From Punctularia strigosozonata HHB-11173 SS5 (Eukaryota; Basidiomycota; Agaricomycetes; Corticiales; Punctulariaceae): DNA of 64,000 nt. Of this stretch, positions 9,238-14,773 are shown piece after piece. The translations under genes and the position numbers were made by a program. Each line of letters opens with the position of its first letter. The first letter of the stretch is position 1. Below the pieces are notes generated by a model. That model was not told the DNA's origin. It saw only the letters and a program-made list of their open reading frames with translations, and did no database searches. The stretch lies in NCBI RefSeq assembly GCF_000264995.1, contig NW_006767439.1, positions 413,179 to 477,178 of the forward strand, written 5' to 3'.

Positions 9238-10175
9238 ATGAAGTTGAACATCGCCAGTGCGTTTATGCAATGTCCTCGCGCTAATTGAATATGTCATTGA
9301 TCTCGTCCGCTAGACCCCGCTACGGGCGAAGAGAAGCTCATCGACATCGATGATGAGAAGCGCTAGTTCGTGAACCCGATGATAATACAGTGTCCAGCGT
9401 CCCTGACACCGGATTCCAGCCGCATCTTCTACGACAAGAAAATCTCCCAGGAGGTCCCGGCCGACAGCCTTGGCGATGAGTGGAAGGGCTACATCTTGCG
9501 CATTACCGGCGGCAACGACAAGCAGGGCTTCCCGATGAAGCAGGGTGTCCTCCTCCCGTACCGTGTTCGCCTCCTCCTTTCGACCGGCGACTCGTGCTAC
9601 CGCCCCCGCCGCACCGGTGAGCGCAAGCGCAAGTCCGTTCGCGGCTGCATCGTTGGCCCGGACATTGCCGTTCTTTCCCTCGTCATTGTAAAGCAGGGCG
9701 AGCAAGAGATCCCCGGCTTGACCGACACTGTCCTCCCTAAGAGGCTCGGCCCCAAGCGGGCGACCAAGATCAGGCGGTTCTTCAACCTTTCCAAGGAGGA
9801 CGACGTTCGCAAGTACGTCGTGCGCCGTGAGGTCAAGAGCTCGAAGAAGGAGGACGCCAAGCCCTACCTTAAGGCTCCCAAAATCCAGCGCCTCGTCACC
9901 CCGGCCCGTCTTCAGCGCCGCCGCCACCTCCGCGCCATCAAGCGCCGCCGCATCGAGCACCAGAAGGAGCAGAAGGCGGAATACGAGTGCGTTTCGGCAT
10001 CTACGAGTATAATGACAACGCTCATGTTTCGTCCAGCGCCCTTGTCGCCAAACGTCAAGCGGAGAGGAAGCAGGTTGCTGCCGCCCACAAGGCGTCGCAC
10101 AAGAAGTATGTATCTCTCGCCCACTAGTTAGAATGATGTCAACTGATTCGTGTTGTTCGTAGGGCCACTGCATAA
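9238..10175 (+). CDS. RPS6: 40S ribosomal protein S6 (eS6)
   Basis: Small-subunit ribosomal protein. Five exons (9238-9256, 9314-9365, 9420-9986, 10037-10105, 10163-10175) give 239 residues, within the family range. The start MKLNIANPATGEEK is typical; later landmarks are [48 protein letters not shown] and [16 protein letters not shown]. The second intron uses a gttcgt donor and places Tyr where relatives have Leu. The last coding exon has 13 nt. The C-terminus ends HKASHKKATA and lacks the RRxSS cluster that carries S6-kinase sites in many eukaryotes. It is divergent from RPS13. Confidence 0.96.
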
Positions 10176-10638: not shown

Positions 10639-13600
10639 ATGCTCGCTATCCAAGGCGGCGTTCCTGCCAGAGGCACGCTGCGTATAGCTTGTGGCTCGCC
10701 CGTGCCCAAATGCCTCGGAGCGTTCTCGAACAGAAGATACCATGATGAATCGTTCGGGTTTCGTGAGCGTCCCAAGGTTGTAGTAACTGACTGTGAGCTC
10801 CGTAAACCTGCCGCTTGTACGTCTCACCAATGACGATTGACCCGTTCACGCAGATACCCCTGCGCAACTGCAGAACCGCATCGCTAACGCGCCTCTTCTT
10901 CGTTATGTCGACTCTATGCGCTTGCATGGTCATCGTGCTGCGCGAATCGACCCCCTGGATCTCATGCAACGCGTCGAAGTTGCCGCGCTTGACCCTACGC
11001 GCTATGGTCTCACCGATTCATCGCAGAAGTACGACGTCAATGGAATCGTATGGACTCAACCTGTGCAAGCAGGCGACCTGCAGAGCGGAAGTGCTGAAGA
11101 GGCAGGTGAACAATGGATGTTGGAGGACATCACTCGACACCTTCGTGCGGTGTACGTCGGACGCATCGCGTATGAGTATATGCACTCACCTTCGAAGACC
11201 GAACGGCTCTGGTTTTCGCATATTCTTGAGTCCGAAGACCGCAACTCAGCGTTCGTGTCCGGGGACGTGACGAACAAGCGCAGGAAGAGGATACATGGGC
11301 TGCTCGCGAGGAGCGAGACGTTCGACCAGTTTTTGCAAACCAAATTTCCGAACTTGAAACGCTATGGTCTCGAGGGCGGCGAGTCTATGCTGCCTGCCCT
11401 CGACACGCTTTTCCAGGTAGCTTCCCAAGGTGATACCCTAATGTCCATCTTCGCCCGACGGCATCCTCACGAGTTCAACGTATATAGCGGGCATTCAACA
11501 GATCGTCCTCGCAATGCCTCATCGGGGCAGGTTGAATCTGCTCACAGATCCGGAGCTTTTGCAGTACCCTGCCGTTGCGCTGTTCCACAAGATCAAGGGT
11601 GGTAGCGAAATTGCGGAAGAATATGCGGCCAGCGGCGACGTTATCAGTCACCTTGGTATGTGGTAGCAGTTCATGCACATTCTTTTGGCTTTGCTAACCG
11701 GAATTGTTTTATCTAGTTGCTTCTCCTACACTACACTACGAGGGCTCCCCCAATCCCATCAAGATCTCGTTGTTGCCTAACCCATCCCACCTCGGCAAGT
11801 CTCCCGCATATGCGACTGCGACCACGAGCTAACCTGATCACAGAGGCCGTAAGCCCAGTCGCCCTTGGCAAAGCACGCGCAAAGCAGTACTCCCTCCTCA
11901 GGACCTCGCCTCAAGACTGCCAACTAGGCGACCGCGTCATGTGCGTGCAACTACACGGAGACGCAAGTTTCACTGGTCAAGGAGTGGTCATGGAAACGCT
12001 CGGTTTGAGTAAGTGGCAAGGTCTCCCATCCCATCGATACCTTGAACAGAAATATTATAGGCAATTTGCCTCATTTTACCAGTGGTGGGAGCGTCCATAT
12101 AGTGGTCAAGTAAGCACTCATCCATTCTCTCCATTTGCCTTTGCTGATGTCGAGCTTTAGCAACAAGTACATGTCATTTCGGGATTCCAGTTTTTTCTTC
12201 ACTGAGTTGACACATATAGCATCGGATATACGACGCCAGCTGCCAGTGCACGTTCTTCGCTGTACTGCTCTGATATTGGCAAAATGATCAACGCGCCTGT
12301 TCTTCATGTAAACGGAGATTACCCAGAAGGTACATCCACTGAATACGGCTTCCGCACTCAAATTCATGATTCAACCAACCCTAGATGTTGCCCGCGCGGT
12401 GGAGACCGCGTTTAAATACCGCAACCACTTCCGGAAAGACATCATCGTCGATCTCATTGTGTACCGAAGATGGTGCTGACCATTTGTTCTGTACTCTCGT
12501 GGGGTGGCTGACATTCGGCAGGGGCCATAATGAACTGGATGAACCGGCGTTCACTCAGCCTCGCATGTACCAGAAGATTCGGTCTCGCAAATCTGTCCCG
12601 ACTCTATACGAGGAGCGCTTGGTAGTGCGTATATCAAAGTCCCGCTCATGCGCGCGCTGCTCTGCTGGTTCTGACGCATGACTATCATCTAGGATCAGCA
12701 AATCATCTCTCCCGAAGAAGCAACTCGTGTTCGGTCAGGGTACAAGGCGCAACTAGATAGCCAACTTTCTCAGCTTTCGTTTTTCACGCCGCCGGGCGTG
12801 ACTTTCGACGGGCAGTGGAAGGGCATGACATGGCCGAAGTCGAAGGACGCGGCTCGCGACCCGGAAACTGGCGTGGACATCGAAACTCTCACCCGTGTAG
12901 GACAAGCTAGTGTTACCGTCCCGGCTGGCTTTGTCCGTCGTTTCTTGACTTGCCTAAGCCTCACCTTTCTGACCTGTTCTCGTTTCAGGAAATTCACAGC
13001 CGGTTGCGTAGGCACGTCAAGCACAGATTGGAGAGCATCCAAGCTGGGAAGGGGTTGGATTGGGCCACCGCCGAGGTGAGCAATCACTGTGCCACTGTGA
13101 AATGAATGTCGTTCATCGAACTGCCAGGCCATGGCATTCGGGTCCCTTATGCTCGAGGGGTGCGATGTGCGCATATCAGGACAGGACGTTGGTCGCGGGA
13201 CGTTCAGTCACCGGTTGGTTGATGTATTACGACATGAGATCGTGCTCCGTTATTGACTCGAGAGCCGCGCCATCGCTCAGTCATGCCATGTTCGTGGATC
13301 AAAACAACGAGAGCGTTGTCGTTCCCCTCAACGCTGAGTTGGGATCAGAAGGGAAGCTCGAACTTGCCAACAGTAGGTTGAAGCCATCGCATCACCCAAA
13401 TGTCATCTGACCCATGCGCGGCACAGGTTCCCTCAGCGAGATGGCTGTACTTGGGGTACGAACTGCATTCATATGTTATGCGAACTCTCTTTCACGTCTT
13501 GAAATGCAATCTCCCCGCAGTTCGAAGTTGGTGTCAGCTGGGAGCGTCCCAGTCTCTTGCCTATATGGGAAGCGCAAGTACGTATCATTCTAGAAATATA

Positions 13601-14773
13601 GATATTTGCTCGTTGAATAGCCGGTTCTGCGCCTAGTTTGGGGACTTCTTCAACGGAGCCCAGGTTGGTCTATAAGTCGTCGCGACGCGCCATTTGGCTA
13701 ATTGATTTCCCCACACGATAGGTCATCATCGACACCTTTGTGTCATCTGCAGAGAGTCCGTCGTTCACCCTCATCCCTCGCTCGTGTCTGGGCTCACATC
13801 TACAATCGTACAGCGAAATGGGCCAAGCAGAGCGGCCTAGTTATGCTTCTCCCTCACGGGCTGGACGGCGCCGGGCCAGAACACTCGTCCTCTAGGCTCG
13901 AGCGCTTCCTTCAAGTTGGTCATTAACAGCTCATATGTAGCCTCGCCCGCTGAACAGCCTCGCGTCTTCCAGCTGACCAACGATCAATATACGTATGAGC
14001 TCGGCAAGAGCTCCGGTGATGTGAACATGCATGTTGTCTTCCCGACCACCGTATGCCCCTTTAAAACCTGCGTCTTGCGCATCCATCGTGACTCGCTCCG
14101 TCGCACAGCCTGCCCAATACTTCCACCTCCTGAGAAGACAGATTAAACGCAATTTCCGCAAGCCGCTTATTGTCGCCGTACGTCTCTCGGCTACTAAGCT
14201 TGCATGGCTCTTATTCACATACATGGCACCGCCGAGAAGGCCCCGAAAGGTCTTCTACGACTCCCAGTGAGTTGCAAGTAAGACCACGGTTCTTAATCAT
14301 GTTGACGTCTTCTGTAGGCTGCAGCATCCTCGCTTCAAGATCTAGCTCCCGCAACGCGATTCCAAGCTGTGTTGTCGGAGATACATCAGGCACCCGAGGA
14401 CGTACGCAGAGTGGCACTCCTGAGTGGCAAGCTATACTACGAACTTGTCAAAGAGCGTGAAGCACGGAAGCTGTCCAATGTCGTGGCCCTGATCCGCATC
14501 GAGGAGCTCTGTCCGTTCCCCTTTCAAGAGCTGCATAAGACGCTGGAAACCTACAAAAATGTTCGGGACGTTTTCTGGGTTCAGGAGGAACCTAGAAATC
14601 AAGGCGCGTTCGCTCATGTCCAGGGTCGCATACAAGAAGTGCTGCACAAGCTCGGAAAAGAGCCGCTGCTATACAAGGGACGGGCCGAGGACGCCGTACC
14701 TGCACCGGGTGTAGGCAAGGTTTATGGCGCGCAGCAGAAGGCAATCGCAGATTCCGTGTTCGATGGATTGTAA
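10639..14773 (+). CDS. DHTKD1: DHTKD1-type 2-oxoadipate/2-oxoglutarate dehydrogenase E1, mitochondrial
   Basis: Thiamine-diphosphate E1 subunit that decarboxylates a 2-oxoacid for an E2/E3 dehydrogenase complex in the mitochondrial matrix. The model has 23 exons and 967 residues; human DHTKD1 has about 920. Landmarks in order: [13 protein letters not shown] near the N-terminus, [109 protein letters not shown] and [15 protein letters not shown]. The last exon (14318-14773) ends in VFDGL. The motif spacing fits DHTKD1 better than OGDH. The short, basic, Arg-containing N-terminus could be a transit peptide. Unusual structure: a 37-nt first intron (10817-10853), a GC-AG intron (11795-11843) and a 6-nt micro-exon (12161-12166). 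Substrate preference cannot be told from sequence alone. Confidence 0.92.

Follow-up and report, generated by a model that had tools for sequence, protein, structure and literature searches.

Our results suggest that a DHTKD1-like gene of Punctularia strigosozonata contains a coding exon of only six nucleotides, CAACAA, at positions 12161 to 12166 on the forward strand of the window, that is, of the whole stretch of 64,000 nucleotides analysed here. We consider it very probable that this is a genuine, constitutively included exon of a gene for a DHTKD1-type 2-oxoadipate dehydrogenase E1, an enzyme of lysine breakdown, and that it is spliced by intron definition. The segment has canonical splice sites in a matching phase, keeps the frame open, fits the protein family and preserves a conserved spacing of active-site residues; its inclusion in the mRNA we infer from the DNA and protein homology only. 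What appears to be new is the identity of the residue, as the sole complete codon of the micro-exon would encode the equivalent of the ThDP-binding Asn366 of human DHTKD1.

The gene model, with boundaries placed by eye and by homology, extends from 10639 to 14773 on the forward strand and has 23 exons encoding 967 aa. The spliced sequence has no internal stop over these 967 residues and is open to its stop. In a search against PDB sequences the protein matched human DHTKD1 (PDB 6u3j) over residues 55 to 960 with an E-value of 1.8e-259 and 867 bits, compared with 631 bits for mitochondrial OGDH (8i0k, 7wgr) and 623 bits for SucA (2jgd). Tyr190, Ser263 and Tyr370 are described as telling E1a from E1o, in which they are Phe, Tyr and Phe (PMC8146983), and the E1a-type residues are found in the fungal protein, within KRYG, ISHL and IGY, in the rows aligned with human DHTKD1, whose numbering was hand-checked via a chain offset of 21. 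Because DHTKD1 scores above OGDH and SucA and the E1a-type residues are present, we take the product to be most probably a 2-oxoadipate dehydrogenase E1 (E1a), and the DHTKD1 identity proposed in the first-pass annotation is well supported. Pfam places the domains E1_dh, Transket_pyr and OxoGdeHyase_C in the protein. NCBIfam, a library built for prokaryotes, names it a 2-oxoglutarate dehydrogenase E1, with both NF006914 and TIGR00239 exceeding their cut-offs, and gave no hit to a DHTKD1 model. Upstream, at 9238 to 10175, lies a gene that by eye resembles one for ribosomal protein S6. A broken frame in that gene was considered and rejected: five open paths were listed, and in one of them a GT donor at 9366 splices out the apparent in-frame TAG and leaves a clean junction.

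Exon 6 (12061 to 12109, 49 nt) ends in GTC AA, in phase 2. Intron 6 (12110 to 12160, 51 nt, phase 2) runs from GTAAGC to CTTTAG and has a branch-like CTGAT about 14 nt from its 3' end. The micro-exon, exon 7, follows in the context AG-CAACAA-GT, and intron 7 (12167 to 12219, 53 nt, phase 2) runs from GTACAT to ATATAG with branch-like CTGAG and TTGAC at -15 and -10; these branch-like sites are weak evidence, the loose motif being absent from nine of the 22 introns in the range examined. Exon 8 (12220 to 12329, 110 nt) opens with a C that completes the interrupted codon, followed by ATC GGA TAT (IGYTTPA), all these features being on the forward strand. CAACAA thus lies within the 15-nt limit for an internal micro-exon and has a canonical acceptor and donor. 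The other 20 introns of the gene, with introns 6 and 7 set aside, measure 37 to 71 nt with a mean of 56.4 nt, the value of 37 nt being possibly wrong, as a second donor of intron 1 gives 52 nt. Lengths of 51 and 53 nt are therefore ordinary for this gene and a single intron of 110 nt is an outlier. Both the six-nucleotide exon and the normal size and phase 2 of its flanking introns, as proposed in the first-pass annotation, are borne out, the former by the canonical GT-AG introns on either side and by the best protein fit.

The acceptor CTTTAG had also been called perfect, and this was too strong. With a splice-site matrix built from only 20 introns, all of the same gene and placed by homology, the donor of intron 6 scores 6.30 bits and the acceptor of intron 7 scores 3.78 bits, while the acceptor of intron 6 reaches 1.68 bits, bettered by 18 of the 20 other acceptors and the third weakest of the gene's 22. 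Elsewhere in the gene, exons of 29 nt (13427 to 13455), 27 nt (13637 to 13663), 34 nt (13722 to 13755) and 30 nt (14237 to 14266) indicate that it is finely cut in general, and the six-nucleotide exon is therefore the extreme of a trend. Intron 4 (11795 to 11843) has GC-AG ends (GCAAGT to CACAG), whereas the 21 other introns of the model all have GT donors. The donor of intron 1 (10802 to 10853) is ambiguous: GTACGT at 10817 yields the 37-nt intron, and GTAAAC at 10802 yields the 52-nt intron and a protein five residues shorter (962 aa against 967 aa). A tandem duplication of a single intron was considered as the source of introns 6 and 7 and rejected, the similarity of the two ranking only 13th among 231 intron pairs.

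With the micro-exon included the protein reads VVNNNIGY, colinear with human IVNNQLGY and without a gap, so that the equality in length with human DHTKD1 proposed at first pass holds. The six nucleotides supply the last base of the codon equivalent to Asn365, the whole codon equivalent to Asn366 (AAC, 12162 to 12164, forward strand, the only codon lying wholly within the micro-exon) and two bases of the codon equivalent to Gln367, here Asn. In the human enzyme Asn366 and Asp333 are described as belonging to the ThDP-binding fold (PMC8146983). Counting the equivalent of Asp333 as residue 1, that of Asn366 is residue 34 in the fungal protein, and the pair is complete only with the micro-exon, the Asn366 column being a gap without it. 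The pair presumably also holds Mg2+. No paper was retrieved when the literature was searched for this ThDP motif.

Bacterial homologues agree with this spacing. The set comprised 37 loci compared by tblastn, from which five duplicates, one locus whose match did not extend over the motif (L007) and one without a match in the region (L010) were set aside to leave 30 distinct rows. These rows do not count as independent, since a single phylum draw, with matches in 23 of its 79 genomes, supplied 23 of the 30; some loci were found by peptide patterns without the ThDP motif and others by a 141-residue query containing it. The Asn366 position is kept in all 30, as is the 34-residue spacing from the Asp333 position, which is itself Asp in 28 rows and Glu in two. 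The residue before Asn366 is Asn in 29 rows and Asp in one. The third residue of the loop, at the Gln367 position, is Gln in 28 of the 30, Leu in two (L028 and L030, which have NNL rather than NNQ) and Asn in none. The first-pass comparison of V-N-N-N with human V-N-N-Q was thus right about length, with the qualification that the third residue, Asn, is unlike that of the homologues. A scan of prokaryote genome contigs for relatives returned ten loci, all bacterial, and one scan of a viral collection returned no relative.

All paths with GT or GC donors, AG acceptors and one or two introns, none shorter than 30 nt, were enumerated across the region, which gave 121 open paths, eight of them with a single intron. 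Among the 121 the micro-exon path restores the conserved segment best, with a score of 170 against human DHTKD1. Its splice-site sum of 18.1 is also the highest among the 12 best paths and the six best single-intron paths of the 121, four-site and two-site sums not being directly comparable. Against each of the 15 matched PDB sequences inclusion adds 9.6 to 9.8 bits, and in the five alignments printed of these 15 a two-residue gap disappears upon inclusion. The next best paths, scoring 159 and 158, are two that would make the exon 12 nt long, by a donor at 12173 (VNNKYIIGY) or by an acceptor ending at 12154 (VNFSNNIGY). Canonical and open as both are, they have lower splice-site sums (14.8 and 16.4) and would put two extra residues into a loop that is gap-free in 30 of 30 homologues, and we regard a 12-nt exon as extremely improbable. 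A path encoding the usual NNQ was sought and none was found among the 12 best and six best single-intron paths of the 121 open ones. Exon 8 starts on C, so the third codon ends in C, and Gln therefore cannot be encoded via the micro-exon path.

Retention of intron 6 would give V-V-K-stop, with TAA in frame immediately after the first codon. Removal of introns 6 and 7 together with the micro-exon as one intron of 110 nt would, in contrast, leave the path open, and it is the best of the eight single-intron paths, with a score of 152. If this were the sole splice, AG-CAACAA-GT would have arisen by chance and the enzyme would be two residues short or inactive. Chance was gauged with 20,000 dinucleotide-preserving shuffles of 12116 to 12213, the counts allowing any third residue. 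An AG-N6-GT arrangement flanked by two introns that are each 30 nt or longer arose in 2,203 of the 20,000, a six-nucleotide exon coding for Asn-Asn in just 24, and one that in addition had splice sites no weaker than the real ones in a single shuffle. Site strength alone is unconvincing, because 46 of the 472 AG-N6-GT sites on both strands of the whole window, the site itself among them, reach at least its splice-site score; the protein fit decides. Together with the rarity of an Asn-Asn exon in the shuffles, the loss of an Asn that all 30 homologues share, a length far from the 37 to 71 nt of the other introns and the fact that the remainder of the gene is open to its stop make a single 110-nt intron hardly credible as the sole splice.

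Skipping of a real micro-exon in part of the transcripts is a separate matter. It would give VVNIGY, in frame, and the first-pass annotation had proposed that an alternative, in-frame enzyme form would result. The frame is indeed kept, but the equivalent of Asn366 is lost. Because this residue would be deleted and the active-site loop shortened, we would expect the skipped form to be inactive, a dead enzyme rather than a useful second form. One could still suppose that the exon is alternatively spliced and that in the homodimer the V-N-I-G-Y form is an inactive and possibly dominant-negative subunit. The good donor of intron 6 (6.30 bits), an acceptor of intron 7 stronger than that of intron 6 (3.78 against 1.68 bits) and the switch-like micro-exon described in a Trichoderma gene (PMC11121469) are consistent with such splicing, as is the frame, but frame-keeping is a weak argument for regulation because any six-nucleotide exon keeps it, and skipping would require the 110-nt intron, far beyond the 37 to 71 nt seen in the gene. 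We therefore think alternative splicing very unlikely. A bolder form of the same idea, in which the exon is a regulated on/off switch whose skipping yields a full-length, folded E1a subunit without cofactor, poisoning the homodimer and so tuning lysine breakdown at the level of splicing, is highly unlikely.

Constitutive inclusion of the micro-exon, the reading we prefer, has a plausible mechanism. In fungi, introns of about 50 nt are believed to form the units of recognition (intron definition), a view for which a study in S. pombe is cited (PMC11121469), and the genome looks like that of an intron-dense fungus. Each of the flanking introns of about 50 nt would then be recognised as its own unit; under intron definition no recognition spanning the six-nucleotide exon is required, and its tiny size would be tolerable. 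With just 6 nt between them, the two splice sites are probably too close to be occupied simultaneously, and the introns would presumably be spliced in turn. The product would carry V-N-N-N-I-G-Y, its middle Asn, the Asn366 equivalent contributed by the micro-exon, completing the Asp...Asn-Asn ThDP site. The six nucleotides would thus carry a residue that the enzyme should not do without, and the accuracy of splicing could be readable as enzyme activity. An annotation that leaves out exons of this kind would, without any warning, describe an enzyme that is probably dead.

Exons of 6 nt are rare but already known, and tiny exons in intron-dense basidiomycete genes are known as a wider kind. In the literature on fungal, basidiomycete and mushroom micro-exons, none of the titles among the matches listed linked a micro-exon to a gene for DHTKD1 or OGDH. 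Two matches, PMC3990503 and PMC4014442, were set aside as micro-exon reports, the word being used in the relevant passages solely for a read-mapper setting. Human DHTKD1 (PDB 6u3j and 6sy1) and the fungal protein share the family, the Asp333-Asn366 spacing and Tyr190, Ser263 and Tyr370, and differ in that Gln367 of the human protein is Asn in the fungus. A plant survey mapped 2,398 micro-exons no longer than 15 nt, most of them unannotated; conserved micro-exons of 1 to 15 nt are described there as often missed by annotation, and the predicted protein may then be short of a few residues (PMC8831610). The first-pass statement that gene callers usually miss such exons therefore has its demonstration in plants, where that source places it. 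The plant exons resemble ours in being tiny and internal and in that their loss removes few residues; they were established by RNA-seq, whereas ours is proposed from DNA and protein homology. In filamentous fungi, functional micro-exons were presented in a 2024 paper as previously undescribed, together with a glucose-regulated one in Trichoderma (PMC11121469). That case, the Xlr2 switch of Trichoderma virens, also concerns a filamentous fungus, but one that is an ascomycete, and lies in a transcription factor gene with glucose-regulated inclusion (PMC11121469). The P450 genes of Phanerochaete chrysosporium, a white-rot basidiomycete, are described as having exons of 2 to 10 aa, the shortest of 6 bp, and frequent introns of 45 to 55 bp, and alternative splicing and functional diversity are suggested there (PMC1184071). 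These genes share with ours small introns and a shortest exon of 6 bp, but they belong to another enzyme family in which alternative splicing is suggested, whereas here the six nucleotides would encode a conserved cofactor-binding residue.
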